From NCBI GenBank assembly GCA_003134695.1, contig PLCB01000026.1, forward strand, positions 196,045-260,044: a stretch of 64,000 nt of DNA, in the 5' to 3' direction. How positions within the stretch are numbered: the first letter of the stretch is position 1; the number at the start of each line of letters is the position of its first letter. Both the position numbers and the translations under genes were made by a program. This document shows, piece after piece, positions 4,619-24,682 of the stretch. Origin of the DNA: Candidatus Zemynaea palustris. GTDB lineage: Bacteria; Vulcanimicrobiota; Vulcanimicrobiia; Vulcanimicrobiales; Vulcanimicrobiaceae. The notes below the pieces were generated by a model, which was not told the origin of the DNA, searched no databases, and worked only from the letters and a program-made list of their open reading frames with translations.

Positions 4619-5308
4619 TTACGTAACGATCTTGGCAAGTTTGTCGGCGCCGACCGCTTTATAGAAGGCGTTGTCGGTCTCGCTGATCTTCGGCGCCCAC
4701 GGATCGATTTGCGCGCCGTTGACCGGAAAATGCACGGTCGGCCCGACGGCGTCGCCGTAATCCGCATCGGCGAACGGCGCGAAGTCTCCGCTTTCGCGAT
4801 GGGCGAGCACCGTCTGCCGGATCGCCGCCGAGGCGGCTTGCGCGGCACTGCGCACGCTGTCGGACAGGCGACCGTCCTCGGCAAACGTGTCGTACAGCGC
4901 GAGCGCCGGCCGATCGGCGCGCCACGGCAAGTGCCTCCCTTTTGGAAAGCGCACCATGCCGTCGATCGCCTTCGCATCTTCACGAATCGCGGCGCGAGCC
5001 GAGCGGTCGCGCGCGGCGGCGACCAGCGCACGGTCGAGGTTTTCGACGCCCGACTCGATCGAGGCGGTCTTCTTTGGATCGAGATCGAGGACGTCGAACG
5101 CTGCGGCCGGCGACCAGCCGCCGTTGCTCGGGAAGTAGCGCATCTCCATGACGCGATCGACGACGCCGCGCGCCATCGCCGCGGGATCGCCTGCGTGCGC
5201 CGCGATATCGATCGCAACTTCGCTGGGTACGCCCGGCGCAAGCATCGTCTCCGGTGACGCCGCCAGATAGCGCACGCCCGCGTGCGAGAGCGCCGACGAA
5301 AAGCCGAG
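4619..5308 (-). pseudogene. Clostripain-like (C11) cysteine peptidase, 3' fragment cut off by the casposon
   Basis: This is the C-terminal part (about 230 codons) of a peptidase whose N-terminal part lies at 24111-24682. The reading frame runs into the left terminal inverted repeat at 5308, and any ATG-like start beyond that belongs to transposon DNA. It begins LGFSSALSHAGVRYLAASPE, the segment that follows the catalytic Cys in clostripain-like proteins (compare the usual ASEE-type motif). Joining both fragments and counting the 14-bp duplication once gives a continuous 415-residue protein. As it stands it is separated from its promoter and catalytic dyad, so it is presumably non-functional. 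Confidence 0.88.
5295..5308. repeat. Left target-site duplication (14 bp)
   Basis: The sequence GACGAAAAGCCGAG lies directly outside the left inverted repeat and is found again at 24111-24124. The identity can be stretched to 18 bp (5293-5310 and 24109-24126) only by counting two bases that also belong to the inverted repeats on each side. Fourteen bases is the size typical for Cas1-driven casposon insertion. Confidence 0.92.
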
Positions 5309-5346
5309 GGGATAGGAGACAGAGCGCTCCAAGACGAGGCCCCCCC
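5309..5346 (+). repeat. Left terminal inverted repeat (38 bp)
   Basis: It starts GGGATAGGAGACAGAGCG and ends in a run of seven C. Its reverse complement occurs at 24073-24110 with a single mismatch (C at 5327 in the left copy). Weaker similarity between the two ends continues inward for several tens of bases. Confidence 0.95.
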
Positions 5347-5470
5347 ACCCCGGCGCTGGGCGGTCGTGGTGCGGGGTGGCTAGGTGCTTAGCTGGCTTAG
5401 GGTAGGGCCACGCGATTGGAGCCGGAACCCGAGAGTTGTCGTTAATCCGATCTCAGATTGAGGTAATTGG

Positions 5471-5921: not shown

Positions 5922-5988
5922 CAGAGCGCTCCAAGACGAGGCCCCCCCGGTCCGGGCGGCGGTGGGCTGGGCGCCTTGGGGCTTAGCG
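5922..5988 (+). repeat. Internal copy of the element terminus
   Basis: Bases 5922-5948 are identical to the inner 27 bases of the left inverted repeat (5320-5346), including the C7 run. Continuing inward, 5949-5988 matches the right arm (reverse complement of about 24035-24071) better than the outer left arm does. The outermost 11 bases of the terminus are absent. This looks like the original or a second left end now lying about 600 bp inside. Confidence 0.85.
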
Positions 5989-7734: not shown

Positions 7735-7803
7735 ATCCACGCGGCACACGCACTCGTCGCGTTCATCCTTGAGACTTGGGAACAACCTGACAGGGTGGTG
7801 TGA
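7735..7803 (+). pseudogene. Remnant of the 3' end of an Abi_C abortive-infection gene
   Basis: This stretch reads IHAAHALVAFILETWEQ then PDRVV and a stop, nearly the same as the last 22 codons of the intact Abi_C gene at 23118-23942 (IHAAHALVAFILETWEQ then HDGTT). The DNA is closely similar as well and lies in the opposite orientation to the intact copy. Upstream of 7735 the similarity stops, so only about 23 codons survive. It indicates that a second, related abi gene once sat at this end of the element. Confidence 0.8.
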
Positions 7804-7841: not shown

Positions 7842-8768
7842 CTAAATAAGCCGCATCATGATTTCGAGATGCTGAGAGATGCCCAGTCTCTTAGGGACTC
7901 CTAAGCCAGGATAGTGGCCCTCTTGATGATATCGCTGATATTCTGCCGTCGCCAGGGTCCGATTACGTGGTCCGAGTGGGCGTATATCGGAAACGAGTTT
8001 CGCGACCGCTTCCGCAAATTTGCCCGCCTGGTCGTCCTGAGTCTCGTTTGTGTCGGATTTGTAGTGCCTTATATAAATCGCGTCGTTTTCGCCGCTGTTG
8101 ATGTAACAGTGATGTAGTGCAATGCAGTATGGGGCGAAACCGCTCTCCGTCGATTCACCAACGATTGAGTAATCGCCGAAGTGCTCGAAGGCATCATCCG
8201 GGATGACGAGGTGTCGGTCAGAGAAAAACTCATCGTCTGGATAGTCCTGATTGCGAGCCTGCCGATTGAATGGGTCGGTGATCTGAACGCGGATTTCTCT
8301 AGGAAAGAGATTTCGCAGCGCGACGGGCACCTGTCCCTCGCGAATAAGCGCGAATTCAGGATTGAGGGCGGCCGCCTCCTCAACGTGCTCCTTGCTGGCA
8401 CCTTGAGTAACAAAAACAGCTCGCCGATCTTCGTACTGCGCGGCGAATTCGGTAATTTCTTGCGAAGTCGAATCTCGATCTATATACAGAGTCGGCACAA
8501 ACAGATCATATTCGTCCAGGGTGCCGTCCACTAGGTCCGCATATGTTTCTCCGACAGTGCGTCCGCGGAGCGCCCCAAAGCGCGGATTTGTTATCAAACA
8601 GAACGAAGTAGAGTTGTCCACGAGTTCCTTGACCGTAAGTTCATATGACCCGTGGGCTCCCAATGGCTCTACTACAGGCATAATGGAATCGTCAGCGCCC
8701 AATTGACCAGCCAGATCTCTTAAAGCCAGCATCTCGTACATCTTGCCGCGCAAAACCGGAAAGTACAT
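7842..8768 (-). CDS. sce7725 family protein (beta-protein-like), putative defence component
   Basis: 308 residues. It starts MYFPVLRGKMYEMLALRDLA and ends with GVPKRLGISQHLEIMMRL, which fits the sce7725/beta-protein family as I remember it: these proteins open with a Y-P-L-L-R-G/K pattern and contain a TIM-barrel-like fold. The function is not established. It starts 13 bases after the sce7726-type gene, the usual partner, so they form an operon. Such pairs are frequent in accessory islands and are suspected of anti-phage roles; that role is inference here. Confidence 0.75.
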   Translation of the reverse strand: MYFPVLRGKMYEMLALRDLAGQLGADDSIMPVVEPLGAHGSYELTVKELVDNSTSFCLITNPRFGALRGRTVGETYADLVDGTLDEYDLFVPTLYIDRDSTSQEITEFAAQYEDRRAVFVTQGASKEHVEEAAALNPEFALIREGQVPVALRNLFPREIRVQITDPFNRQARNQDYPDDEFFSDRHLVIPDDAFEHFGDYSIVGESTESGFAPYCIALHHCYINSGENDAIYIRHYKSDTNETQDDQAGKFAEAVAKLVSDIRPLGPRNRTLATAEYQRYHQEGHYPGLGVPKRLGISQHLEIMMRLI

Positions 8769-8781
8769 TTTTACGAATTCC

Positions 8782-9690
8782 TCACGCGCAGCGCGACTCT
8801 AGCGCGGTCTCGAAGCGAGCTCGCGTAAGTCGTCCTCGCGCTTGTTCAGTAATAAGATTCAGAAAGATACCGCGAACGGCTGATGGCAGCGCGCTACAGT
8901 CCCGTTGCACAACGTTTCGATAACGCAATTTTAGGACCCTAATAAGCGAAGCGTGCGCAATTTCAGGGGCCAACGTCGCAAAAAGTGAGCGGCACTCGCG
9001 ATATAGCAGGGTGTTCGGCACCTGAGGAATTCCGCCAAACAGTCTTTCGATCTCGGGAAGGAACTCCGGCTTTCTCATGCACGAGAAAATGTTTTCGGCG
9101 CTCACGTTCGGAACATTATCCAAATGTTCGCGAACGGTAACAATCTCTCCGGGCGTGTCCAGCGTGAGTATCCCGGCTCGCGCATCTAGTGTCGCTTGGA
9201 CTGCCGCGAGATGCTTCGCGTCGCAGACCACGTAGACGCGATCGAAAACCTTGAGATAGGTATCAATTTGAACCTCGAGCCGACCCAACGAGTCGAACGC
9301 AGTCTTTATCTCGTAGGCACATGTCGTTCCATTTACGACGGCCAGGTCAACGCGAACCTTGCTCAACCGAAGCTCGGGAATCACGAGCGAACTTCCAGGT
9401 GTATGTCGAGAAGTTACTAGATAGTTTAGGAGCTCATTCTTGTAAACATACTCGCACCGATACGCCTCACGCATTTCGCCGTACACGCGGCTCAGGTAGG
9501 AAAGGACACTCTCCTGCGCATGGGCGACCAATCCAGTGGCGCGCCCGATTTGCGCGATTAGCGGTATGTGCGTCCCACTTTCGACGCGAGCCAAGAAACT
9601 CGGACGGAATAGCATCGCCACCGACGGGGTCAGGCGTGCTTTCTGAGGCGCGGGAAAAGTGTCAATCGAGGATGAAAGGAACTCGCTCAC
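8782..9690 (-). CDS. sce7726 family protein with PD-(D/E)XK nuclease-like core
   Basis: 302 residues. The segment VRVDLAVVNG ... AYEIKTAFDSLGRL ... Q ... Y has Asp115 and the E127-x-K129 pair expected of a PD-(D/E)XK nuclease fold, and it matches the typical sce7726 pattern of an RVDLA strand followed by YEIK, a basic residue and Gln. It is the first gene of a two-gene operon with the sce7725-like gene. Activity on nucleic acids is inference from the motif. Codon and base use look less GC-biased than the flanking chromosome. Confidence 0.78.
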   Translation of the reverse strand: MSEFLSSSIDTFPAPQKARLTPSVAMLFRPSFLARVESGTHIPLIAQIGRATGLVAHAQESVLSYLSRVYGEMREAYRCEYVYKNELLNYLVTSRHTPGSSLVIPELRLSKVRVDLAVVNGTTCAYEIKTAFDSLGRLEVQIDTYLKVFDRVYVVCDAKHLAAVQATLDARAGILTLDTPGEIVTVREHLDNVPNVSAENIFSCMRKPEFLPEIERLFGGIPQVPNTLLYRECRSLFATLAPEIAHASLIRVLKLRYRNVVQRDCSALPSAVRGIFLNLITEQARGRLTRARFETALESRCA

Positions 9691-9933: not shown

Positions 9934-10782
9934 TTGTGCGAGAAATTTGGCGTGCGCAAGCGCTCAATCGAGGCGCAGGCTATCGACCTTTCGCGCCGTG
10001 TCCCGCGTGCCGAAATCCAGGTCTTACAAGGGATATACTTAGGTGCCGGCGGCGGCATAGCTTGGTATGACGTGCCTACGATTTCCGAGCAATGCGCCGA
10101 CGGTATCAAAGCGCTGCTGAAACGTCATCCAAACCTCGCCACAGAACGAGGACTGCGGCCACGACTGCGAGCGAACGGTCCGCCCAAACTAAATCGGATC
10201 TTTTCGTCCGGCGACCACAGCATGATTGAATACGCGGTTCGAGATAGTAGTCGCGCTCGATTTACGGAATACGAACGAATTGTCGAACCGCACGACCACC
10301 TGTATAGACTTACACCGTTGCAAGACCCAGCTACACTTGAGCTGCGAGTCGGCCACCCAACGATACGGCTCGAGTTAATCAATGCCTTCGCGAAGGATCT
10401 TGGTATCGACCCTCCTGTTTCGCAAATATATCGAGTTCGCGGCGCACGGGTTGATGAGCTCAGTAAGGAGCTCGAAGCCCGGCTCGTCAAGGCCAAATTA
10501 AGGACCGCTGGCGGCGGAGTTAAGTCAATTGAAATCGAAGCAGATGAAGTGCATGGCCTTTCCGAAGCAAAACGTTACAGTGATGAGATTGAGCTCGGGT
10601 CCGAGGAAACGCTGCGCGGTTATGAATTTGTTACGTCACACCCGGATGGATACAGTGAGAAAGCCGTCGTGGAAATCGTTTTACACAGCAGCGAGATGAA
10701 AGTGAGCTCGTGGATCAGCGAACGCGCCATCCTCAATTTGCGACGTAGCGTCGTGAAATTCGCCACGATCGAAAATGCGTAG
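9934..10782 (+). CDS. Protein of unknown function, first of three overlapping genes
   Basis: 282 residues from a TTG at 9934; no domain recognised. The sequence is mixed alpha/beta with DELSKELEARLVKAKLR near the middle and a beta-rich C-terminus. The same frame stays open upstream to the stop at 9841 and reads plausible protein (RDFEVLATNDDPTLRQILEA) with no start codon. An ATG at 9791 in another frame reads MPRTVLMPAGIVVGCVG, so the true N-terminus may be there with a one-base frameshift near 9840. The following gene overlaps its stop. Confidence 0.6.
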   Translation: MCEKFGVRKRSIEAQAIDLSRRVPRAEIQVLQGIYLGAGGGIAWYDVPTISEQCADGIKALLKRHPNLATERGLRPRLRANGPPKLNRIFSSGDHSMIEYAVRDSSRARFTEYERIVEPHDHLYRLTPLQDPATLELRVGHPTIRLELINAFAKDLGIDPPVSQIYRVRGARVDELSKELEARLVKAKLRTAGGGVKSIEIEADEVHGLSEAKRYSDEIELGSEETLRGYEFVTSHPDGYSEKAVVEIVLHSSEMKVSSWISERAILNLRRSVVKFATIENA

Positions 10783-11152
10783 GCCGGATCCTGTAGTTTA
10801 CGGTAGAGTTATGGAGTCACTGCGTTCAGAAGCCGAACGTGATCCCAGTGGTTCTGTTACCACGTCTTCCGTCAGCGGCGCTCTTGGGATCAGTCTTGAC
10901 GACGCTACGATCGCGCTAGAACACGCTCTCGATAAGCGTTTATTGCGGCGCGTCAATCAGAACGTGTGTGACCTTTGTGGCTCCGTCGCATTGAATTCAG
11001 GTGATTCTGGAGGCGCGTCCGATTTTTGCTCGGACTGCAACTCGATAACGCCCCAGACGCGCTATGTCATTTACAGATTTACCGAGCGCCTGCGACGGGA
11101 ATCGCGCCGCCCAAAAGACCCGCGGCGCAGGGCGCCGCTCGTCAGGGTTTAG
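10775..11152 (+). CDS. Winged-helix-like protein with a zinc-finger segment
   Basis: 125 residues. The N-terminal ~70 residues look like a winged helix-turn-helix (VSGALGISLDDATIALEHALDKRLLRRV). Then comes CDLC, about 20 residues, and CSDC, a four-cysteine zinc-binding pattern, and a basic tail. It overlaps the end of the previous gene by eight bases and is overlapped by the next, so the three are probably translated together. DNA or RNA binding is likely; its role is unknown. Confidence 0.65.
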   Translation: MRRPDPVVYGRVMESLRSEAERDPSGSVTTSSVSGALGISLDDATIALEHALDKRLLRRVNQNVCDLCGSVALNSGDSGGASDFCSDCNSITPQTRYVIYRFTERLRRESRRPKDPRRRAPLVRV

Positions 11153-11511
11153 GATCCACGCTCGCTCCAGCCGATCGCCTGGAAGCAGTTGCGGAGCGTC
11201 TCGAGAAACTTGATCTTCGGCGGCCATGGTGGCGCGAAGTCCTAAGCTTCATTGCGGACTTTTGGGCCTTCCTTACCATCGGTGTGCTGCTGATTGGTTT
11301 CCTGGTAAGTCTCGGCCCCGCAAGGCCATTCGTGGATCGTGTTCATTCAGTGTTGGTAACTGAGACTAACAGATTCGCGTCTTTTGTACGCCACTATCGC
11401 TCTAGCCAGCAAAGCCCGGCGACCGTGAGGACAGGAGGGACCGAAAAGAGCGACGCGCCTTTGCGGAGGCCGAGTCCGCCGGCCACGGCGAACCCCAAGT
11501 CGCCGCCGTAG
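11026..11511 (+). CDS. Small single-pass membrane protein of unknown function
   Basis: One clear membrane helix (FWAFLTIGVLLIGFLVSLG) is preceded by a short amphipathic segment (LEAVAERLEKLDLRRPW) and followed by a Pro/Ser-rich tail. The start is uncertain. TTG at 11026 lies inside the previous gene, and the convincing protein begins only near 11150, where no standard start codon is present. It is the third of three overlapping genes; a membrane protein beside a zinc-finger protein is a layout also seen in defence modules. Confidence 0.5.
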   Translation: MLGLQLDNAPDALCHLQIYRAPATGIAPPKRPAAQGAARQGLGSTLAPADRLEAVAERLEKLDLRRPWWREVLSFIADFWAFLTIGVLLIGFLVSLGPARPFVDRVHSVLVTETNRFASFVRHYRSSQQSPATVRTGGTEKSDAPLRRPSPPATANPKSPP

Positions 11512-11541
11512 GTCTTCCCCTCAGAACCGCGAGGCGAAGCC

Positions 11542-12675
11542 GTGAAACAACTTACTCGCTCCGAACTATTTGAGCTTGTCTGGAAGCAGCCGATGAGCAC
11601 GCTCGGACCAACCCTCGGCATTAGCGGCACTGGCCTAGCTAAGGTCTGTAAGCGCGCCGGGATACCGACGCCGCCGCACGGCTACTGGGCGAAACTGCAA
11701 CATGGGAAACGTGTCCGGCGACCAGCGCTTCCGCCGGCGCCGCAGGGGCAGAGTGAACAGGTCGAATTTGAAACCGGAGCGCTGAGCCGAAACCTGAGCG
11801 TTGACCAGATCCCGCAAGACATCGCAGCGCTCGTCGAGGCGGAACGCGCGGCTGAGAAACCGCTAACCGTGGCTCAACGCCCGACGAAGTTTCATGCAGT
11901 AGTTGAAAAATGGTGGCCACATGCCACGCGATCATTTGGTTCTCAAACGCGAAATGAAAGACAATCCAAAGCAGAAGTACGCCAGCGAAGCACTTTGAGT
12001 ACGTTCGCTTCCGAGATTGGCAGGCTTGGCGGGTCTGTCACCTGCGACGAACGGCGCAGGTTAACCGCGCGGATTGCTGGCGAGGACATAGAGTTCTCAC
12101 TGAGCGAGCGCTCCAAACAGATCCGAGTCCCTCTTACTGAGCAAGAGGCTCGATGGGGTTTCTACGCCGATCGGGGCTATAAGACCGAGAACGAAGCGAC
12201 CGGCGAGCTCAGACTGCGGATCGAGAATTACTTCGACCAACCGATCCGGAGACAATGGCACGATGCGCCGGACAAACCGCTCGAGCAGCAGTTAAGGGAC
12301 ATTCTGATCGGGTTTCTCTTCGCGAGCGCGCTCGAACGAGAAAAACGCCTTGAACGGGAAGAGCAGCAGCGCAGAAGGCTTGAGGAAGAGCGTCGCAGGT
12401 ACGCTCTCGCAGAGCGCCGGCGAGAAGTGAACACCGAACTACAGGCGCTTCGTGACGAGGTGGCAGCGTGGATCGAGGCGGCCCAGATCCGCGCCTACGT
12501 TAAAGCCTGCATGGGGGCCTCGGGCCAAGGCGGCGCGGATTCTCTTAGTCCGTGGGCTCGCTGGGCGATGGTTGCGGCAGATTCAATCGACCCCCTCATT
12601 CCCGATACGGACGAAAGCGTCTTGTTATCCACTGAATTGCCAAGCCCTAACCATGATACTGAGCCAGACGAATAG
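11542..12675 (+). CDS. Hypothetical protein with N-terminal HTH-like segment and charged coiled coil
   Basis: 377 residues. The N-terminus KQLTRSELFELVWKQPMSTL ... GISGTGLAKVCKRAGIPTPPHGYWAKL matches a widespread family of bacterial hypothetical proteins from accessory regions, with a likely helix-turn-helix. A long Arg/Glu-rich coiled coil occupies about residues 255-300 (EREKRLEREEQQRRRLEEER). A GAGGCGAAGCC stretch precedes the ATG. It ends six bases from the end of the convergent cas1 gene. Function unknown; DNA binding is inferred. Confidence 0.7.
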   Translation: MKQLTRSELFELVWKQPMSTLGPTLGISGTGLAKVCKRAGIPTPPHGYWAKLQHGKRVRRPALPPAPQGQSEQVEFETGALSRNLSVDQIPQDIAALVEAERAAEKPLTVAQRPTKFHAVVEKWWPHATRSFGSQTRNERQSKAEVRQRSTLSTFASEIGRLGGSVTCDERRRLTARIAGEDIEFSLSERSKQIRVPLTEQEARWGFYADRGYKTENEATGELRLRIENYFDQPIRRQWHDAPDKPLEQQLRDILIGFLFASALEREKRLEREEQQRRRLEEERRRYALAERRREVNTELQALRDEVAAWIEAAQIRAYVKACMGASGQGGADSLSPWARWAMVAADSIDPLIPDTDESVLLSTELPSPNHDTEPDE

Positions 12676-12681
12676 GGATTC

Positions 12682-14109
12682 TTACAACACGGCTTTCGTC
12701 TCGGCTTCACGCTTACGCTGCCGTAACTCCCGCTGCTGGGCGGCTCTTCGCGCTCGGTGCTGATCCGGAGTAAGACGCATGGCCCGCCGCTTGTTACTGG
12801 CGGCAATAGCGGCGCCGCGCTTCTTCGCTGCTTCGCCGCCGTGGCCGGGACTCAGACCCTCGCTGCGCATTTTCTGCAGTTTTGCTCGGGCCAATTCGAT
12901 CGGCCGCGCTACCTCGACGGAATACCGTAAATAACAATGCCTTGAGCAGAACTTGAGGCCGACTTTCTTGAGCGGTTTTTGGCAATAGCCGCACGGCCCA
13001 CCATCGCCGAGACGAAGCGCCGGGGCCTTGGCGGCCTTGCGATCATCGATGAGACGATAGGGGATGGTGATGTGCCGAAGGTCGCGTGCGAAGCTCGCAG
13101 CCGCTTCAGCCGCCGGGCGTCGCAGCTGGGGCATCAGCCAAGCCGCATAGGCTCGAGCAAGGTCCGGGTCCAGGCGGACAACGCCGTTCGGTAGCTCATG
13201 GAACATGTGTGGCCGCAAACCGGCGCGATGGCAGAACCCGAACGAAAGCGTATCGACCCGGGTTCGAATCGGCTCCTGAAGATCATAGATCGCTGACTGC
13301 CGAAGCCGATCATCAACGTGAATAAGGCCGAGGTCGGGGTCGAGCCCCTCCTGCCCGCACGCAATGCGCACTTCGACCTCGAGTAACGTGTACCCATAAT
13401 TCAGAAGCGCATTGAAAGGATCTGTGGCGTTTCGTACCCGAGCCTTCAGCCCAGACTCTCGCGGCCAGACTCGTAACCAATGTTCCGGTATTCTGGATTT
13501 GGTCCATGCCGGCCACGGTAGCGGAGTCCCGGCAAGAAGCTCCCAATAGGTTCGCGCCGCATAACCTTCGTGAGCCAGAAGATCACGTAATTCTCGATCT
13601 TTATGGAGCGAATCAACAATCGTCCCGATCTCATTTAGAGCGCGCGTCCTGCACGGGTCCGTTCGATTGATGATGCCAAGATCTGGCAACTCGGTCTCGA
13701 TGGCATCGATCTGACTCTTAAGCTTCCTGCGGAGCAAACTCTGTGCAACAGTTACGCCGTCCTCAGTGACGCCTGCGACCGCCTGTGCACGCTTTAGCGG
13801 CCCGTCGGAAACTATGCCCGGAACGTAGCAACTAAGAAGACGACTGTCCGAATTGAGGTACGCGATCGTGACGTTCTTTCGGCTGCACCAGTCAATCGCG
13901 GAAAAGGAGACAACCCCGGCGGGCGACCGAACGACGAGCCGGCATAACTTCGTGCGCCCCCGAGCGAACCTCGTCTTTCGACGCTTGGGTGCGGGCCCGT
14001 GACCATCTCGGATGATGAGGTGGGCGCCCTCAACATTGATACTCGCGCCGTAGCCGTCCACAACAAACACTGGTCCGGCATGGCGGCCTGTGATAGACTC
14101 GGTGAGCAT
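12682..14109 (-). CDS. cas1: Solo Cas1 endonuclease/integrase (casposase) with C-terminal zinc-binding tail
   Basis: 475 residues. The N-terminal beta domain (VFVVDGYGASINVEGAHLII ... AIDWCSRKNVTIAYLNSDSR, residues 14-90) is typical of Cas1. The catalytic helical domain has Glu181 (HEGYAARTYW), the FNALLNYGYTLLE helix (232-244), His264 (LGLIH) and Glu279 (YDLQEPIRTRVD), matching the Cas1 metal site. After about residue 370 comes an extra ~105-residue tail with CGYC (373-376) and CSRHC (388-392), a likely zinc site, then a very basic end. CRISPR Cas1 proteins are usually ~300-340 residues and lack this tail; archaeal casposases have a C-terminal HTH at this place. No cas2 or CRISPR array lies nearby. 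Predicted role: cutting, joining and target capture for the element. Confidence 0.93.
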   Translation of the reverse strand: MLTESITGRHAGPVFVVDGYGASINVEGAHLIIRDGHGPAPKRRKTRFARGRTKLCRLVVRSPAGVVSFSAIDWCSRKNVTIAYLNSDSRLLSCYVPGIVSDGPLKRAQAVAGVTEDGVTVAQSLLRRKLKSQIDAIETELPDLGIINRTDPCRTRALNEIGTIVDSLHKDRELRDLLAHEGYAARTYWELLAGTPLPWPAWTKSRIPEHWLRVWPRESGLKARVRNATDPFNALLNYGYTLLEVEVRIACGQEGLDPDLGLIHVDDRLRQSAIYDLQEPIRTRVDTLSFGFCHRAGLRPHMFHELPNGVVRLDPDLARAYAAWLMPQLRRPAAEAAASFARDLRHITIPYRLIDDRKAAKAPALRLGDGGPCGYCQKPLKKVGLKFCSRHCYLRYSVEVARPIELARAKLQKMRSEGLSPGHGGEAAKKRGAAIAASNKRRAMRLTPDQHRARRAAQQRELRQRKREAETKAVL

Positions 14110-14174: not shown

Positions 14175-15131
14175 TTATCCTGGGTTTCGAATTGAGTTCA
14201 ATTCAGTCTCGACGGCTGAACTAAGCTGCGTCAGCGCAGCCTCGGCGTTGTCGGCCATAATTCTCAGTTTTTCGGAGAGTTCTGGCTTCTTGCTTCTGAT
14301 CAGCACTAAGCCGGTGAAGAGAAGCGGGCCTCTAAGGGTCACCGGTTGACCTAAGAAGGAATCAGTGAAAACACCCAGCCCGAATCTGTTATCGCCGTAG
14401 AGGTTTTGCGCAAAGCCAGCCCACGCGATCATCTTTTCGTAATTCAGAAGATCAGTCTTAGCTTGAAGGAGTTGTTCGTCAGTCACTGAGTCGAGGCATG
14501 TAAGCCACTCGGAGCTCAGGCTCATCGCTTCCATAAAATCCGGCGTCGTTTCACCGCTCAGCCAAGGACCGATGCCGGGCAGCGTATCTGATCGCGCTTT
14601 ATCAAGGCCGGTGGCGGCCTCAAATTCCCTCGCAGCTTGCTTCTGCTGCTCGATACTTACTTGTCCGCCGAACGCCGCGGTAGCCATCGTGTCGAACAGA
14701 GTATAGAAACCGCCGTCGCGCGAGAGCGCCCGGACCTGTTTGGAAACCCCCTTCTTACGATGAAGGCCGTCCGCAATCTTCGTACTGTATTCCGCAACCT
14801 TTTGTGGGTCCGCGGTTCTCGGCACGATCTCTCGTAAAGCACGGCGCACACGCTCGATCGGTATGTCATAACCGTCGATCCACAGCCGAAAAGCGGCCAA
14901 GTCAAAGGAACGTTCTTCCTTTAAGAACTTCGCGAGGGCAACTAATTGCGCCACGGTCCCGGGCGGCGCGGTTCGTGCAATGCCCTTGCCGCGGCCGCGA
15001 CCTTCAGCGGTGGGTGTTGGCAACAGCTTCTCGGTCCGCCATCGATCGATCTGCTTGCTACCGACCTCGATACCGAGCGCGGCCGCCTCGTCGATCAGGG
15101 CCTGTTTCTCGGGGCTGACGGACGCTTTCAA
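14175..15131 (-). CDS. MerR-like HTH protein of unknown function
   Basis: 318 residues. The N-terminus (about residues 10-45, ALGIEVGSKQIDRWRTEKLLPTP split over the helix) resembles the first helix-turn-helix of MerR-type regulators, followed by a Gly/Arg-rich linker and a Leu-rich helical body. It precedes cas1 on the same strand with a 65-base gap, and its start faces the polB operon across a shared control region. It could regulate the element or help Cas1 or PolB recognise the ends; both are inference. Confidence 0.65.
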   Translation of the reverse strand: MKASVSPEKQALIDEAAALGIEVGSKQIDRWRTEKLLPTPTAEGRGRGKGIARTAPPGTVAQLVALAKFLKEERSFDLAAFRLWIDGYDIPIERVRRALREIVPRTADPQKVAEYSTKIADGLHRKKGVSKQVRALSRDGGFYTLFDTMATAAFGGQVSIEQQKQAAREFEAATGLDKARSDTLPGIGPWLSGETTPDFMEAMSLSSEWLTCLDSVTDEQLLQAKTDLLNYEKMIAWAGFAQNLYGDNRFGLGVFTDSFLGQPVTLRGPLLFTGLVLIRSKKPELSEKLRIMADNAEAALTQLSSAVETELNSIRNPG

Positions 15132-15159: not shown

Positions 15160-15205
15160 TTTACGGAATGCATTATGATTGTCTTAGGCCCAATGCATAA
15201 AGGTT
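15160..15205. promoter_or_regulatory. Divergent control region with two AATGCAT boxes
   Basis: The 102 bases between the minus-strand gene at 14175-15131 and the plus-strand operon hold two near-identical A/T-rich palindromic boxes, AATGCATTA at 15167-15175 and AATGCATAA at 15192-15200, 25 bases apart centre to centre. This is the most A/T-rich part of the neighbourhood. A binding site for one of the adjacent HTH proteins, controlling both transcripts, is the simplest reading. Confidence 0.45.
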
Positions 15206-15233
15206 CCTTCAACTGCCCGTGAGGGGTGTCATA

Positions 15234-15434
15234 ATGCTCCGTTTCAAGCTCTGGCGTCTCCAGAACCGCCTGACCCAAGGGCAGGCGGCCCAGCGACTGG
15301 GGATCGGCGAATCGACTCTCGCCCTCTTGGAAAGCGGTCGTCTCCGACCTTCGCCCGCTCAAATTGAGCAGCTTCGGCCGACGTTCGGCGAGCAGACGGG
15401 TTCGCTGTTCGAGCCCGTGCAGGAGCACGTTTAG
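15234..15434 (+). CDS. Small XRE-type HTH regulator
   Basis: 66 residues, almost entirely one helix-turn-helix: LWRLQNRLTQGQAAQRLGIG then ESTLALLESGRLRPS. The ATG at 15234 follows GAGGGGTG at a good distance; an in-frame GTG upstream at 15219 would only add five residues. It is the first gene of the plus-strand operon ending with polB, and its stop overlaps the next start. Autoregulation through the AATGCAT boxes is a reasonable guess. Confidence 0.78.
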   Translation: MLRFKLWRLQNRLTQGQAAQRLGIGESTLALLESGRLRPSPAQIEQLRPTFGEQTGSLFEPVQEHV

Positions 15435-16063
15435 TGGAAAACCTGGTTCGCGAAACCGTCGAGGAAGTGGCCGTCGCTCCGGGTGCCGTGCCCGAGCACA
15501 ACCGCGGCAACTCTGACAAGCCGGGCCTCCACGAACGACGGCGACGTGCGGAGCAGCTGCTCCGGGACCAGCCGGGTCTCTCGGATCGAACGATCTCTAA
15601 GGAAAGCGGTCTAGCGCGAGCGACCGTCGCGAACATGCGCGCCGCCCTCGAGAGAGCCGGCGAAATCGACTACGCATCGCAACGTGTACGATCTGACGGT
15701 CGGACATTTTCTGAACGCGTTGAGCGGCGCCAACCCGGCGAGCTCCCGGAGCCAGATCTGGGCGAAATAGTGTCGGACGGCCTGAAAGGGTTATTCATGT
15801 CGCGCGAGCGCCGGCGCGCGCGAAAAAGCGTGCGTTACCTGCAACATTTGCTTGTCGCTTTAAACGACCAATATGAACTTCCGTCGTGGGAAACTGCGAC
15901 TGATACAGCGGCGGCTTGTCTCGAGGTACTTGGCGCCGATAAAGCGCGCGAATTTGCGACGCGCCTCGCCCCTCCACTCCAAAATGTTACCGACGTGGTG
16001 CGCGCTCTCAATGCGCGACTAGCGACCCCTTCACCTCACAAACAACAGGAGAAATTACCATGA
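15434..16063 (+). CDS. HTH DNA-binding protein of the polB operon
   Basis: 209 residues from a GTG that shares a base with the previous stop codon. A helix-turn-helix lies at about residues 32-75 (RAEQLLRDQPGLSDRTISKE then SGLARATVANMRAALE), in the style of ParB-associated or winged-helix HTH proteins. The C-terminal half is helical (KSVRYLQHLLVALNDQYELP). The next gene overlaps its end by four bases (ATGA). A replication-initiator or partition-like role is possible given the polB linkage, but this is inference. Confidence 0.68.
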   Translation: MENLVRETVEEVAVAPGAVPEHNRGNSDKPGLHERRRRAEQLLRDQPGLSDRTISKESGLARATVANMRAALERAGEIDYASQRVRSDGRTFSERVERRQPGELPEPDLGEIVSDGLKGLFMSRERRRARKSVRYLQHLLVALNDQYELPSWETATDTAAACLEVLGADKAREFATRLAPPLQNVTDVVRALNARLATPSPHKQQEKLP

Positions 16064-16431
16064 GTAAACCGCGTAAACCAAAGGGCGGCGCGAGCGGCGC
16101 CGGCGACGATGACGGGTTCCAGTTCTCAAGCGGCAGCCCATATTCCGACAAGTCCGAATATCTCGAGAAAAATCTCATTTTTTCGATCACCGCGGTCGAG
16201 CATCAACCTGGCCAAGGCTTCGAGGGCGCCGATCGGTGGGCGGTGACCGTCGAGCCTGACGACGGACGCGGGCCCGAAATTATGACGTTTGCTTGCAACG
16301 AAAAGCGCGACGAACAACTTGAATCGGCGCGCCTTCACATACAACAGCGGGGCCCCATCCGCGACGTGGTCCTGACCAAGTCCGGCAAGGCCTACTACTT
16401 CCGCACGGCGGCACAGCGCCGCGCTTCCTAA
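16060..16431 (+). CDS. Small protein of the polB operon, possible ssDNA-binding protein
   Basis: 123 residues with a low-complexity Gly/Ala/Asp start and then a beta-rich body (YLEKNLIFSITAVEH ... DRWAVTVEP ... DVVLTKSGKAYYFRTAA). Alternating strands and conserved-looking aromatic residues would fit an OB-like fold, and an SSB next to PolB would make sense; this is inference and no signature is diagnostic. Its start overlaps the preceding gene, and a perfect hairpin follows its stop. Confidence 0.55.
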   Translation: MSKPRKPKGGASGAGDDDGFQFSSGSPYSDKSEYLEKNLIFSITAVEHQPGQGFEGADRWAVTVEPDDGRGPEIMTFACNEKRDEQLESARLHIQQRGPIRDVVLTKSGKAYYFRTAAQRRAS

Positions 16432-16443
16432 CACCAAACGAAG

Positions 16444-16473
16444 GAGGGCCGGCGATTAGCCTCGCCGGCCCTC
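16444..16473 (+). terminator. Strong GC hairpin after the third gene of the polB operon
   Basis: Perfect 11-bp stem GAGGGCCGGCG / CGCCGGCCCTC with an eight-base loop. No T run follows, so it may act as an mRNA-stabilising hairpin or a partial terminator rather than a full intrinsic terminator. Confidence 0.55.
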
Positions 16474-16557
16474 AAGGACTGTTACGTACATGCAAATTGT
16501 AGAGAAGAACCCGCCGCCGCGTCAAGCCGCGACCTCCGCGGGAGCTCAGGGTGGCCC

Positions 16558-17070
16558 ATGAAGGGCGGCAAACGGCTCTCGGCCGCCAACGTCCGAAATC
16601 TCAAAGAATATAGCGCGCTGCCGCACGCGGAGAAACTGCGCCGGGAGAAGGCTTTAAAAGCCCTGGGGCTCGTGCGCAGGGGTTTGTCCTTGAGGTCGGC
16701 CGCCAAACAATTGGAAACGCCCCCTCAATCGGTCGTGTCGATCGTTGGGTCAGCGCTCAAGAAAGACCGCGGCCGATACGTGCCGACCAAGGGCGACCGC
16801 AGGCTGAGGGTCATGGTCATCCCCACCCGCCAGGGTCCTAAAGAGGTGGCTTTCTACAGTTTTGCGACCGCGCAGAAGATTTCGCGCTACGACGAGGCGG
16901 TGAAGGCGTTGTCCCTTCGCGGCGACTATGGCCCGATCCAGCGCCTCAAGGACACGAAGATTTTTGCCAACGGCGAGTGGATCGAACTCCTGACCGATAT
17001 TGACGAGCTCGAGCGCCTCGATCGCTCGCACGCACTTTCATTTGAAAGCATCTACGCGGGAACCGCCTGA
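16558..17070 (+). CDS. HTH-like protein of the polB operon
   Basis: 170 residues, with a basic N-terminal half containing a likely helix-turn-helix (LGLVRRGLSLRSAAKQLETP then PQSVVSIVGSALKK, about residues 38-75), followed by a beta-rich C-terminal part. The intergenic space before it contains the hairpin at 16444-16473. Its stop overlaps the next start (TGATG). Unknown family; DNA binding inferred. Confidence 0.6.
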   Translation: MKGGKRLSAANVRNLKEYSALPHAEKLRREKALKALGLVRRGLSLRSAAKQLETPPQSVVSIVGSALKKDRGRYVPTKGDRRLRVMVIPTRQGPKEVAFYSFATAQKISRYDEAVKALSLRGDYGPIQRLKDTKIFANGEWIELLTDIDELERLDRSHALSFESIYAGTA

Positions 17071-17564
17071 TGTCGGACGCGCCGCGGGTCAGTCGCATCA
17101 TGAGCCAGTCGCGCAAGGCGCGCAAGGCCCGGGTGCGCGGCGTCGGCGCGAAATGCAAGGACTGCGGAACCGACGATCCGCTGGTGCTCCTCAAGACGCG
17201 GCCGATTCTCTGCGAAGCGTGTAAGCGGCGCCGCGACGAAAAATCCGCACGTGACGGTCATCACCCCAGCGCCAAGGCAAACTCGACGTTCACCATACCG
17301 GTCCCGGTCAATTCACATCGCCGGCTTACCGATGCCCAGAATAATTGGGATCCAGAGACGTGGAGAAACCCAACGGGCTGCCCCTTACGCGCGGCCGCCG
17401 GCTGCATTCAAGGCTTTATTGACACATGCAAAGAGATGATGGACGCGATGCTCGCGTGGATCGTGGAAATGCTGGAGGCGCTTTCGGATCTTCTGCGCGA
17501 GCAACTCGGCGAGCGCTGGTGGGTCGGAACGCCCCTCGAGCAATGGGCTCGCCCGCCCGAGTAG
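17070..17564 (+). CDS. Zinc-finger protein directly upstream of polB
   Basis: 164 residues. A four-cysteine zinc ribbon (CKDC ... CEAC, residues about 29-55) sits behind a basic N-terminus, and the C-terminal third is a helix with repeated hydrophobics (MMDAMLAWIVEMLEALSDLL). It overlaps the previous stop by one base and the polB start by 22 bases, so it is almost certainly co-translated with polB. A role as replication accessory or primer protein is possible but not shown by the sequence. Confidence 0.6.
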   Translation: MSDAPRVSRIMSQSRKARKARVRGVGAKCKDCGTDDPLVLLKTRPILCEACKRRRDEKSARDGHHPSAKANSTFTIPVPVNSHRRLTDAQNNWDPETWRNPTGCPLRAAAGCIQGFIDTCKEMMDAMLAWIVEMLEALSDLLREQLGERWWVGTPLEQWARPPE

Positions 17565-20500
17565 AGTCGGGCGAGCCGGAACCTCTGAAAATCGCCGTTC
17601 GCGGTTTCACGGAGTGGGACGGCGCGAAAGAGCGTCGGGCTGCGACATATCGGAAATTCGCGGGCAACGTCCTCATCCTCGATACCGAGACGCGCATCAG
17701 CGCGGCGCAGAATCTGACCTTCGGGAGTTACCGGCTCCTGGAGGCCGGCCAATGCACCGAAGAAGGCCTATTTTACGGCGATGACCTCACTCCGAAAGAA
17801 ATGGCCTGCCTGCATGAATACGTGAGATCGCGCGACGCTGACGTCGCCCCCGGATTTTCGAAAAAACTCTTGCTTTATAACCAGCGCGATTTCCTGAGGT
17901 TGTTTTACGAGGCTGCCTTTCGGTCGCGGTTCCTCGTCGTTGCTTTCAACCTACCTTTCGATCTGTCTCGCCTTGCTTTCGACGTGGCGTCGGCTCGGGA
18001 CGAATTCGCCGGCGGATTTTCACTTATGTTATGGCAGCGGCCCGGGAGCGAGCTCGAAAACAAGTACCGCCCCCGCTTCGCCGTCAAACACATAGACTCG
18101 AAGCGCGCCCTCAAGGGATTCACCAAACCGGTTGTGCTCGATTATGCCGACCGGATTCCCGAGGGATCGAAGACCGGTAAGCCAGACAAACGATACACAT
18201 TTCGTGGCCACTTTTTAGATCTGCGCACCCTAGCCTTCGCGTTGACTGATCGCGGCCACTCACTGAAAACCGCGTGCGAAGCCTTCGGCGTCGAGCACGG
18301 GAAAACCGAACCGGACCGGCATGGGATCGTAACGCCGGAATATATTGACTATAATCGCCGCGACGTTCTGGCGACGACAGAGCTCTATTTCAAACTCATG
18401 GAGGAATACGAGCGCCATCCCATCCCGCTCCAGGCCACCCGCGCCTTTTCACCCGCCTCGATCGGCAAAGCCTACGAACGGGCTATGAGCGTCGTGCCCC
18501 CCACTGGACCGGCAGCCAGACTTTGACAAGGTGTTTGTCGGAAATGCGATGTCCGCATTTTTTGGGGGCCGCGCCGGGGTCCACATACGTCGCGTGCTGG
18601 TGCCGATCGTGTATTGCGACTTTTTGTCGATGTACCCCACGGTCAACGCACTGATGGGTTTATGGGACTTCATTATCGCCCGCAAGATCGAGGTTGTCGA
18701 AGCGACGACCGAGGTTCAGTCTTTTCTGAACACGGTCGATCAAGACCGACTCTTTGATTCCAAGACGTGGCGCAAATTGCCGGCATTCGTACAGCTGGAA
18801 CCGGCCGGCGACATTCTTCCCGTCCGCTCCGCATTCGACCCCGACACGAAGGACTGGCAGATCGGGGTGAATTTCTTACACACCGGCAAGGAAGGCCCGC
18901 GCGAGGCGCTATGGTACAGTTTGCCGGACGTCGCCGCCTCGGTGCTCCTGACCGGGCGTATCCCAAAGATCATGCGAGCGCTTCGGCTCAAAGCGGTGGG
19001 GAGGCAGCGCGGCCTGAAATCCGTCAAGTTCCGGGGCGACATTCCCATCGACCCTCGCACCCGCGATTTTTTCAAAACGGTCGTGGAACAGCGCAAGCTC
19101 CTCGACCAGCGCACGGACCTGTCGGAAGACGAGGTAAAGCGGCGGGGCGGCAGCCTGAAGGTCACCGCCAACGCGACCAGTTACGGCATCCTGGCCGAAA
19201 TGACGCGGCACGAACTAGGCGAGCGGCGCAAGGCGTGGGTCACCGTGTATGGCGTCGATGACGAATCGTTCCGCTGCAAGGTGGCGGCGCCCGAAACGCC
19301 GGGGGAATACTGCTTCCCACCCTTGGCGGCGCTCATTACCGGCGCGGCACGTTTGCAGCTCGCGTTACTCGAGCGTTGCGTTACCGATCTTGGCGGTACG
19401 TACGCGATGGAGGACACTGACTCTATGGCGATCGTCGCCACGCGCGACGGCGGCCTCATTCCGTGCCGGGGCGGCCCGCACGTCGTAGGGGGCCGGGAAA
19501 TGATCAAAGCGCTGTCCTGGGCCCAGGTTAGGGGGATTGCCGGGCAATTCCAGGACCTCAACCCCTACGAACCTTCGGCCGTGGACGGATCGGCCCTAGA
19601 AATCGAACCCGACAATTTCGACCCGGTAACGGGCGAACAACGCGAGATCTATTGCTTCGCGATCTCGGCAAAGCGCTACGCGTTCTTCATGTTCGACGCG
19701 AACGGCGACCCGCAGATTCTTCAGAAGAAAGTGAACAATAAGGACGACGGATGGTCCGAACACGGACTGGGTCATCTCCTTAATCCAATAAGCCCAAATA
19801 GCGAGGATCGAGGCTGGATCCGCGAGGTTTGGCTATACCTCATTCGGTCCGCGATAGGATTGAAGGCGGAGGCGCCGTCCTGGTTCGACCGCCCCGCGTT
19901 AACCCGGATGAGCGTGAGCAGCCCGGCGATGCGCGAATTGTTTGAAAGAATCAACGAAAATAAGCCATACAAAAAGCAAATAAAGCCATTCAATTTCCTG
20001 TTGACCGCGCATATTGCGCCAGATGGTTACCCGATCGGCGTCGATCGGGATCATTTCCATCTTTTTGCGCCATACGAATCCGATCGCCGGAAATGGGAAA
20101 ATCTGACCTGGGTTGACCGTTACAGTCGGAAAACGTGGAAGGCATCGACGCTGATCAATCGCGGGACGAGCACGATGGCGCGACTGCAAACCTATCGTGA
20201 CATCATCGAAAAATACGCGTTCCGCAAAGAAGCAAAAAGCGCGGACGCTTCGGGTGAGGTCTGTGGCAAGAAAACCGTCGGCCTCCTGCAGCGCCGACAC
20301 ATTGCCGTCGGCAAACTAACCCATATCGGAAAAGAATCAAACAAGCTCGAGGATGTGCAATCTGGGATAGTTCACGATGTCGATGAGGTCACGACGGAGC
20401 TCGTTGACCCAAAGCGCGATGAATGGACGACCGTCATTTTGCCGATCCTGCGCGAAATGCCGATTTCATTATTGATGCGCGAAAGTGGTCTTTCTCGAGC

Positions 20501-20591
20501 AACGATTCAAGCAATTCGCGCCGGCCGGCGCCCTTACAAGAAGAATATGGAGCGCCTCGTGGCGCTCCGATTTGCCCGGGGCAAAACCTGA
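17543..20591 (+). CDS. polB: Family-B DNA polymerase, split by a one-base frameshift
   Basis: Two adjacent frames together make one ~1015-residue polymerase. Frame one (17543-18526) holds the 3'-5' exonuclease: Exo I DTE (47-49), Exo II AFNLPFDL (Asn136, Asp140), Exo III YIDYNRRD. Frame two (palm frame, open before 18531 to 20591) has palm motif A DFLSMYPT (Asp359), motif B KVTANATSYG (Lys539) and motif C EDTDS (Asp624, Asp626). The join is at a C6 run (18497-18502): with one C fewer the text reads VVPPLDRQPDFDKVF without a break. The 180-residue spacing A-B and ~85 B-C are larger than in many RNA-primed PolBs, which would fit protein-primed types, but this cannot be decided here. An HTH-like segment ends the protein (LLMRESGLSRATIQAIRAG). 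Start ATG 17543 chosen over upstream frame that shadows the previous gene. Confidence 0.9.
18497..18502 (+). other. polB: C6 homopolymer frameshift site in polB
   Basis: Six C residues between the exonuclease and polymerase halves; one C too many for a continuous frame. It may be a sequencing or assembly error, a real inactivating mutation, or a site of translational slippage. The coding quality is high on both sides, right up to the run. Confidence 0.85.
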
Positions 20592-23117: not shown

Positions 23118-23942
23118 TCAGGTCGTTCCGTCATGCTGCTCCCAAGTCTCAAGGATGAACGCGACAAGTGCATGGGCAGCGTGGATCGCCAACCTTGCAT
23201 GGCGTGGCGTCAACCGGTATCCTCTTTTTGAGGTTCCCTGTGCGTGAGCAGAACTAGCGTGCGTGCGCAGGGCGGCGATGCCCCCAGCGGTTGCTATCAA
23301 ACCGCCCAGGATTGCCTTTAGGTCATCATCTTCAATCGCCGACGGGTCGAAGCCGAGATCCTTACGGACGACTCCAAAGACACCGCTCAAGTCTTGTTTG
23401 GAGGGCATTGATAAATGCGGGTGTTGAACAATGTATTCCTTACAAATCGCCTCTAATATGTTAGCGGCAGCCGACACCGCCTCTCTAGGCTTGGTTTCCA
23501 CATTTTCGGTAGCACGTTGAAACTCATCATGAACCGCTGGAAAGTCTCTCTGTTTTAAGATCGTTGCTAAGGTAGCCGTTGAACTTCCAGCCATCGAGGC
23601 AGCCCGGATTATTTTTCCACCTGTGACGTAACGTAAGCCGTACTTGCCGAGCAGCGCGTGAAGACTCTCGCGATCTTTCTCGTATTGTGAACCCGTCGAA
23701 ACCTCGCGCTCCATGAAGTCCTCCAGCAGCTTTCCCAAAGTCACAAACGCGGTTTGTGGTTCGTCCCGGTTGACTGCTCGCAGCCAGTGCGTGATGGTAT
23801 CGACCTTGTTGCCGCCTGGGCTTTCTACAGCCGTGCCGCTATGATAAAAGAGATTCTCGAACTGGCTCCTTGTGTAGTATTGGTCAAAGAGCCGAGCAGT
23901 CAACGCAATCACGGGCATGGGAATCGTTTCGAGCCGAGTCAT
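23118..23942 (-). CDS. Abortive infection family protein (Abi_C-type C-terminus)
   Basis: 274 residues. The C-terminal half fits the Abi_C pattern: EAVSAAANILEAICKEYI, then LKAILGGLIATAGGIAALRT with HASSAHAQG (the usual R-x-x-x-x-x-x-H-G type motif), and the closing helix ARLAIHAAHALVAFILETW. Proteins of this family are linked to abortive phage defence and occur mostly in accessory regions. The first half is helical with no known domain. It stands alone just inside the right end. A remnant of a second copy lies at 7735-7803 in inverse orientation. Confidence 0.82.
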   Translation of the reverse strand: MTRLETIPMPVIALTARLFDQYYTRSQFENLFYHSGTAVESPGGNKVDTITHWLRAVNRDEPQTAFVTLGKLLEDFMEREVSTGSQYEKDRESLHALLGKYGLRYVTGGKIIRAASMAGSSTATLATILKQRDFPAVHDEFQRATENVETKPREAVSAAANILEAICKEYIVQHPHLSMPSKQDLSGVFGVVRKDLGFDPSAIEDDDLKAILGGLIATAGGIAALRTHASSAHAQGTSKRGYRLTPRHARLAIHAAHALVAFILETWEQHDGTT

Positions 23943-24072
23943 ATCTGGTTCTGTAGCACAAGGCAGCGAGCGATATCAAGCTCGCGAGATCTCGACCCAT
24001 GGGGCGCTCATCTTGCAACGCTCCCGCCCCTAGCCGCTAAGCCCAGGCGCCCAGCCCACCGCCGCCCGGACA

Positions 24073-24110
24073 GGGGGGGCCTCGTCTTGGAACGCTCTGT
24101 CTCCTATCCC
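24073..24110 (-). repeat. Right terminal inverted repeat (38 bp)
   Basis: Reverse complement of the left repeat with one mismatch: seven G inward, GGGATAGG outward when read on the minus strand. A degraded second copy of its core (TCTTGCAACGCTC, about 24011-24023) lies some 75 bases further inside, against TCTTGGAACGCTC in the repeat itself. Confidence 0.95.
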
Positions 24111-24124
24111 GACGAAAAGCCGAG
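24111..24124. repeat. Right target-site duplication (14 bp)
   Basis: GACGAAAAGCCGAG, identical to 5295-5308. On the minus strand it encodes Leu-Gly-Phe-Ser-Ser of the interrupted peptidase. Confidence 0.92.
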
Positions 24125-24682
24125 GGTTGCCATCATGCATTGATTGGCGACCACGCCGTCGACGCGACGACCCGCGTCTTCGGGATGGGCTTTCGCGTGC
24201 AGCGCGACGCCGTCGGCGATCGCTCCGGCCATGTCGTCTTCGCGCATGATTCCGACGTGCCGTCCGCCGGGAGTCGGCGGACCGCCGCCGGCGTGATCGG
24301 CCTCGAGTCCACCGCCGTCGCCGGCCCCGTGATCGACGAGGTCGATCCAAGTTTCTTTCGCGCCGGATTTCTCGGCATTGTCGAGCGTTCGGGCCACGAA
24401 CTGGGCGAGGTTGGCGCGCGACGACATGTCGTGCATCGGCGATTCCTTGAAGCTGAATTCTTGCCCGTCGTCGAGACGGTAACTCTGCGTGGAGAGGGTG
24501 TCTTCGGTATCGACCATATCCGTGTCTTCGACGGTGAACTCGATCGAGGGCTGCTTGGCGCTGACCTCGATGGCTTGGTCGAGCACGATCGACTGGATGT
24601 CGTCGAGGTTATTGTCGCCGTCGCGGTAGATGCCGAATTCGAGCGCGCGCGTCCGCCGCTCGGGGGAGAGGGTCGCGATCAT
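24111..24682 (-). pseudogene. Clostripain-like (C11) cysteine peptidase, 5' fragment cut off by the casposon
   Basis: Start of the interrupted gene, with a good ribosome-binding site (GGAGGT, spaced by three bases from the ATG). It has the FGIYRDGDNNLDDIQ opening typical of clostripain-like proteins, the catalytic His118 (VDHGAGDGGG) and catalytic Cys182 (VANQCMMATLGF). The frame then enters the right inverted repeat and stops at a TAG within it after SSG. The 3' part is at 4619-5308. A ~191-residue truncated protein could still be made, but it would lack about half the domain. Confidence 0.88.

Follow-up and report, generated by a model that had tools for sequence, protein, structure and literature searches.

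Casposases differ in what they carry behind the Cas1 core, and the locus described here raises the question which DNA, that of the casposon end or that of the target, is held by an extra C-terminal domain. The role of this domain bears on the origin of CRISPR adaptation; Cas1-Cas2 has no such extra C-terminal domain. The casposase of Methanosarcina mazei dies without its C-terminal domain, since deletion of the HTH abolishes integration (PMC6977970), whereas family 1 works without one, the family-1 casposase being site-specific without a HTH (PMC6614799). In the window, i.e., the whole stretch of 64,000 nucleotides that was analysed, which comes from an uncultured soil bacterium, a stand-alone cas1 gene with the full set of catalytic residues encodes a casposase ending in a zinc motif and a basic tail. 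A preliminary description of this DNA had regarded this end as a departure from the usual HTH and as a possible different mode of terminal repeat recognition.

The casposase and its C-terminal tail

The casposase gene comprises the following features.
12682-14109, minus strand (14109 to 12682): casposase (Cas1 integrase) of 475 aa with E181, H264 and E279, called by Pfam, PDB profile and structure model
12934-12993, minus strand: zinc motif C373xxC376-x11-C388xxxC392, called by cysteine conservation and a zinc knuckle in the tail model
12685-12933, minus strand: basic helical tail without HTH, residues 393-475, called by structure models, composition, and Pfam and Foldseek searches without HTH match

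The open reading frame 12682-14109 lies on the minus strand, which had not been given before. That it encodes the casposase of a casposon was borne out, as the 475-aa product matches Pfam Cas_Cas1 (E 1.1e-34), the best PDB match of the family profile is the M. mazei casposase (6opm, E 1.5e-41), and the gene is part of an element with terminal inverted repeats (TIRs) and a target site duplication (TSD). The full-length structure model (pLDDT 88.7) has a Cas1 fold, again with 6opm as top match (E 1.5e-20). Likewise, the catalytic core is intact as originally reported, since E181, H264, and E279 show no variation in alignments of 20 and of 51 casposases. No relatives were found by a single-sequence genome scan and a viral scan. 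A search that covered 149 genomes of the phylum, in which the named relatives are Candidatus Eremiobacterota, gave nine further casposases of ~50% identity, and their match to the window casposase extends through the tail. These nine and the window casposase are referred to as clade A.

The four cysteines C373, C376, C388, and C392 (CGYC-x11-CSRHC) and the strongly basic end, with 27 K+R vs. 8 D+E in residues 371-475, are present as first described. A comparison of the tails of the closest Cas1 relatives, which had been proposed as a check, showed that the nine further casposases keep all four cysteines. Thus, none of the four varies within clade A (10/10 sequences), and three remain invariant over the 20/20 sequences of clade A and the clade B described below. 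Because of this conservation the cysteines are not due to chance, and we infer that the tail binds zinc through four conserved ligand cysteines. A random basic extension was ruled out for the same reason. In the full model the tail consists of a zinc-type knuckle followed by the helices 390-416, 426-443, and 448-474, and a model of the tail only (pLDDT 88.9) also gave a zinc knuckle plus helices. Foldseek with the latter model returned nine PDB matches, none of them significant (best E 0.54), of which the top ones are weak matches to zinc fingers (a MYND domain, with YacG third). None of these nine is described as a HTH, and Pfam detected no HTH in the tail; no tail homologues were matched in phages or plasmids. 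A HTH fold with incidental cysteines, which had been named as the finding that would speak against a zinc-type tail, is ruled out by both structure models, by Pfam, and by the conservation of the cysteines. According to the models, the C-terminus is most likely a treble-clef-like finger stabilised by zinc, with basic helices behind it.

The element and its split polymerase gene

The casposase gene is embedded in the following features.
5295-5308, no strand: left TSD GACGAAAAGCCGAG, an identical 14-mer on both sides
5309-5353, plus strand: left TIR (GGGATAGGAGACAG... ACGAGGCCCCC), pairing with the right TIR
5922-5979, plus strand: additional copy of the TIR interior inside the element, minus the terminal GGGATAGGAGA, 58 nt with 95% identity to 24042-24099
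7842-9690, minus strand: cargo pair sce7725 (7842-8768) and sce7726 (8782-9690), NCBIfam 8.6e-69 and 4.5e-45
11542-12675, plus strand: gene convergent with cas1, best match (37.5%) in the clade A element of genome G019
14175-15131, minus strand: conserved protein upstream of cas1, of B-type affinity
15201-15434, plus strand: small XRE-type HTH protein of 77 aa near cas1, Pfam HTH_31 2.2e-9, with relatives in B-type elements
15434-16063, plus strand: winged-HTH-like protein
16060-17564, plus strand: three conserved genes upstream of the polymerase, two clearly of B-type affinity
17423-18526, plus strand: family B DNA polymerase (PolB), exonuclease part, PHROG DNA polymerase 8.4e-8, 50-56% identical to PolB of B-type casposons
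18489-20591, plus strand: PolB, polymerase part (DFLSMYP, NATSYG, EDTDS), in a frame different from that of the exonuclease part
20409-20567, plus strand: HTH at the C-terminus of PolB, akin to the terminal HTH of B-type casposases (hmmsearch E 1.7e-5)
23118-23942, minus strand: cargo gene with an abortive-infection C-terminal domain (AbiJ-like), Pfam Abi_C 6.8e-17, PADLOC AbiJ 1.5e-7
24066-24110, minus strand: right TIR, pairing with the left TIR
24111-24124, no strand: right TSD GACGAAAAGCCGAG, an identical 14-mer on both sides

The region 5309-5346, previously named as an end of the element, is part of a genuine TIR, as 5309-5353 pairs with 24066-24110 over 45 nt (91%). The element measures 18.8 kb from TIR to TIR (5309/24110) with a 14-bp TSD, and it unites what characterises a casposon as a Cas1-driven, self-synthesising transposon, namely cas1 together with a family B DNA polymerase, and TIRs flanked by a duplication of ~14 bp. 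No HNH match was found among the ORFs of the element scanned with Pfam. By sequence, the sce7725/sce7726 pair and the AbiJ-like cargo resemble defence genes.

The PolB call rests on the PHROG match of the exonuclease part, on homologues beside cas1 in other casposons, and on motifs; the polymerase part had no match in Pfam and PDB. The frame switches near a run of six C at ~18495-18500 (overlap 18489-18526), and the PolB of G102, another genome with a clade A element, is also split near the same place. The split is either an assembly error, an inactivation or a frameshifting, and this copy of the element may be inactive owing to the PolB frameshift. Programmed frameshifting was set aside, as the shift in the window is near the C6 run and the G102 split looks different. 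Taken together with the internal TIR copy, the frame change in two PolB genes could also mean that the casposon is a relic and that its tail has no present role. This is very improbable, since the cas1 frame, the TIRs, and the TSD are intact and the tail is clearly constrained over ten sequences, whereas a single wrong base in the assembly of the C run would be enough to account for the PolB split.

The internal TIR copy lies 613 bp inward of the left end and shares with the right end a longer match (58 nt, 95%) than the genuine left end has, which may point to a captured or nested end. Moreover, a 57-nt inverted repeat (88%) at 7735-7791 and 23130-23186 duplicates the 3' end of the Abi_C gene near the opposite end of the element.

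Relatives of the casposase and the mixed origin of the element

A HTH is not the usual tail of casposases, as had been presumed, but marks family 2, in which alone HTH fusion is general (PMC4046053); it is absent in family 1 and in two of the four family-3 casposases (PMC4046053, PMC6614799). The casposases of StrAlb-C1 and HenMar-C1 have no extra domain, NitAL212-C1 has an N-terminal zinc domain and a C-terminal HTH (PMC4046053), and AceAut-C1 of family 3 has a zinc-binding domain plus a HTH at the casposase C-terminus (Krupovic et al. 2014, PMC4046053). Like the window element, AceAut-C1 is a bacterial casposon with a zinc-binding domain at the Cas1 C-terminus, PolB, TIR, and TSD, but it has a HTH in addition, whereas clade A has none.

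With AceAut-C1 described in 2014, a zinc-ribbon tail is no departure, and it proved to be common among the bacterial casposases found. Scanning named genomes produced 80 loci, distributed over Eremiobacterota, Acidobacteriota, Chloroflexota, Actinomycetota, an Armatimonadota bin, Hyphomonas, and Methanosarcinaceae, in which the usual bacterial layout is Cas1, zinc ribbon, linker, and a HTH ending PHPRHW. The label zinc plus HTH applies to 43 of 69 rows; the four ribbon cysteines are invariant in 29 of these, among which the Pfam double zinc ribbon model matches 13/29 and a HTH model 6/29, weakly. Neither the zinc-ribbon nor the HTH models of Pfam match clade A, and the Methanosarcinaceae rows contain no zinc ribbon. 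The zinc tail as such is therefore already known, and the missing HTH behind it is the new variant.

We refer to the zinc-plus-HTH casposases of Acidobacteriota, Chloroflexota, Actinomycetota, and Eremiobacterota as clade B. They share with the window the Cas1 core, the CxxC..CxxC ribbon, the divergent cas1-polB layout, and in several cases a linker with 'GxDPxHGG..RG', and the PolB and TIR of the window are of clade B type. Unlike the window casposase they have a C-terminal HTH (IRxGxxxPHPRHW), their targets are varied (some coding), and their core is about 28-38% identical; a second set of casposases from the phylum search has the same identity of about 28-38%, chiefly in the core only. Family 2 (M. 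mazei 6opm, A. boonei) offers the closest solved structure, the same catalytic residues, a 14-bp TSD, and GGGATA ends in the mapped Methanosarcinaceae elements. However, it carries a HTH after the core, has no zinc ribbon, and uses mostly tRNA 3' ends, and its C-terminal HTH fused to Cas1 is lacking in the window casposase. Family 1 (NitAR1) resembles the window element in being site-specific without a HTH and in using a protein-coding target gene, but it has no tail domain and its site is at the 3' end of EF-2, so that the gene is spared.

In a tree of the Cas1 core only, clade A forms a single branch (support 100) with zinc-plus-HTH rows on either side, although the deep branches have moderate support (SH-aLRT 87-91). 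Loss of the HTH is the simplest reading of this position, and the tail of clade A looks inherited, its HTH lost rather than replaced; repeated HTH gains elsewhere may have occurred instead. The window Cas1 groups with other bacterial casposases, apart from the archaeal Methanosarcinaceae rows, in a tree built without published references of families 1, 3, and 4 and with Hyphomonas L097 as a mere stand-in for HenMar-C1.

The polymerase has another affinity than the casposase. PolB of the window is 50-54% identical to the PolBs of B-type elements such as Granulicella L057 and Eremiobacterota L060 vs. 30-34% to other clade A PolBs, in a PolB tree it is placed among the B-type rows (support 99), and joining it with the clade A PolBs is rejected (AU p 5e-5). 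Its C-terminal HTH is of B type, and several neighbouring genes have B-type affinity as well. The same holds true for the ends: the window TIR (GGGATAGGAGACAG, then ACGAGGCCCCC) matches that of L060 and with its first 14 bases also that of L057, whereas GGGATANTACA, followed by CGTCCGG or TTCCGG, is the usual start in the remaining clade A elements of which the ends were mapped. Beyond GGGATA it differs from all other clade A TIRs, and a search for clade A TIR motifs inside the window found none, but B-type ends only. On another contig of the same genome there is a decayed casposase of B type accompanied by similar TIRs, which shows that this host has had B-type elements. Comparison thus shows the window element to be a natural chimera, in a single case, of an A-type casposase and target with a B-type polymerase and terminal repeats.

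The decayed region (L143, contig C45, positions 1758, 6480, 10545-11558, and 15177) is a second casposon region in the window's own genome; its casposase is N-terminally truncated and of the zinc-plus-HTH type, and its TIRs follow the pattern GGGATAGGAGTTAAG, two of which point the same way. At L051:8107-8601 a 165-residue open frame without Cas1 contains two fingers and a 'HGGEAAKKRGAK' motif, and might represent a stand-alone tail module. A single open frame at L043:9854-10930 fuses a clade A Cas1 fragment to an apparent PolB C-terminus, probably by internal deletion of a casposon. The 6.4-kb clade A element G117:C3:131-6535 (L036) has no recognised PolB and an IS3-like transposase gene inside, and is non-autonomous or decayed.

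The target site and what the tail may hold

The window element interrupts a gene, the halves of which are found at both of its ends.
4619-5308, minus strand: 3' half of the interrupted clostripain-like gene, beginning LGFSSALSHAGVRYLAASPETM
24111-24682, minus strand: 5' half of the same gene, with NQCMMATLGFS at its end

Both ends were mapped in the window, G102, G019, G109 (two in tandem), G038, G052, and G117, with 14-bp duplications in all. In the window, G019, and G109 the flanks are halves of genes from a single family; in G117 the left flank is short and ends in the same motif as this target gene. The motif is seen by eye in the flanks of G038 and G052 (MATMALAA and QCLMNTLDYAA), in G038 also by pattern search. 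With the 5' half as query, the target gene was found in 92 genomes of the phylum, typically intact with 410-450 aa, and in G043, G114, and a second place of G102 it is continued, from the same position on, by an A-type GGGATA end. Hence, in 9/9 genomes that encode a clade A casposase, an insertion or what looks like a casposon end is located at one codon position, [LM]-[GAD]-[FLY] shortly after NQC(L/M)M, with the exception that the intact clade A element of G102 is inserted elsewhere. No B-type bacterial element with mapped ends is at the clostripain-like site; their sites are varied, some in other coding genes. As a positive control, two archaeal elements were located at tRNA-Leu, as published for family 2.

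The name clostripain-like is based on a weak similarity only: one intact homologue matches PF03415 (Peptidase_C11) over the NQC region with an E of 0.024, below the cut-off, a second one does not match it, and the target gene had no match in the PDB. A synonymous-site comparison of occupied and empty targets comprised too few sites to separate a signal from coding constraint. Such a target is unusual, as the casposons described in 2014 left coding targets unaltered, whereas clade A elements interrupt one. Reported family-3 insertion sites are intergenic (PMC6614799), in contrast to the coding site interrupted by the window element.

An A-type casposase in a B-type backbone at an A-type target suggests that target choice goes with the casposase, while end recognition would be minimal (GGGATA) or aided by other proteins. 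The preliminary description had suggested that the zinc-basic tail takes the place of the HTH as reader of the TIRs. The tail is indeed basic, conserved, and without HTH, and integration by the M. mazei casposase needs the C-terminal domain (PMC6977970). However, the tails are 66% identical between the window and other clade A sequences (residues 371-440, core 50%), yet the window TIR is unlike the others beyond GGGATA, and bacterial casposases with the same zinc ribbon have very different TIRs plus a HTH. That the archaeal HTH reads the ends, as had been presumed, is also questionable: the authors of the M. mazei study suggested a possible role in recognising sequence that lies upstream of the target (PMC6977970), and the A. 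boonei casposase requires five terminal TIR bases, which alone matter in the TIR, plus a target motif upstream (PMC6614799). We therefore consider TIR reading by the tail improbable, and the chimera points to the target and not to the TIR interior.

As the tail is kept better than the core despite differing TIRs, a contact of the tail on the target side is favoured. The tail might alternatively serve assembly, as a dimer or tetramer or by contacts to PolB or other element proteins, or give non-specific DNA affinity, while the Cas1 core itself sets the target. Such contacts or such binding could explain the conservation of the tail, and it fits that the core residues R191/R192 touch target bases in the M. 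mazei complex (PMC6977970) and that site specificity occurs in a family-1 casposase which has no tail domain at all (PMC6614799). Given that the window and other clade A sequences agree more in the tail than in the core, and that the many basic residues of the tail favour nucleic acid, though still compatible with non-specific binding, this alternative appears rather unlikely.

We infer instead, as the explanation that is somewhat better than evenly probable, that the integrase of a complete casposon shares its finger and basic-helix tail with the zinc-plus-HTH enzymes, has lost the HTH in clade A, and holds target or leader DNA by the tail. The Cas1 core would join the casposon ends to the target, for which the shared terminal GGGATA bases alone would need recognition, and the zinc-basic tail would most likely grip target or leader DNA, the clade A target being a fixed coding site (NQCLMATLGFA codons) in the clostripain-like gene. 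The TIR interior would be handled by other element proteins, possibly HTH ones such as the PolB C-terminus or the small XRE-type protein (15201-15434), which is a possible HTH acting in trans. More tentatively, one might think of a strict division of labour, in which the tail picks the target, the polymerase HTH or the small XRE protein reads the TIR interior, and a swap of cas1 re-targets the casposon with its ends unchanged. If this were true, a cas1 swap would send a whole casposon to a fixed site within what is presumably the catalytic motif of a protease-like host gene. Of the new facts, the fixed coding target and the natural swap of cas1 are the most useful; with a zinc ribbon without HTH, a defined and reused target, and this swap, clade A allows direct domain-swap tests of end vs. 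target recognition.

At the target, a tandem casposon pair in G109 (C6:282978-314072; L040, L041) has one shared 14-bp target in the clostripain-like gene, and apparent extra TIRs lie directly beside the element ends in G117, G052, and G038. Furthermore, all mapped ends, archaeal and bacterial, start with GGG, mostly GGGATA, and the duplications are ~14 bp.
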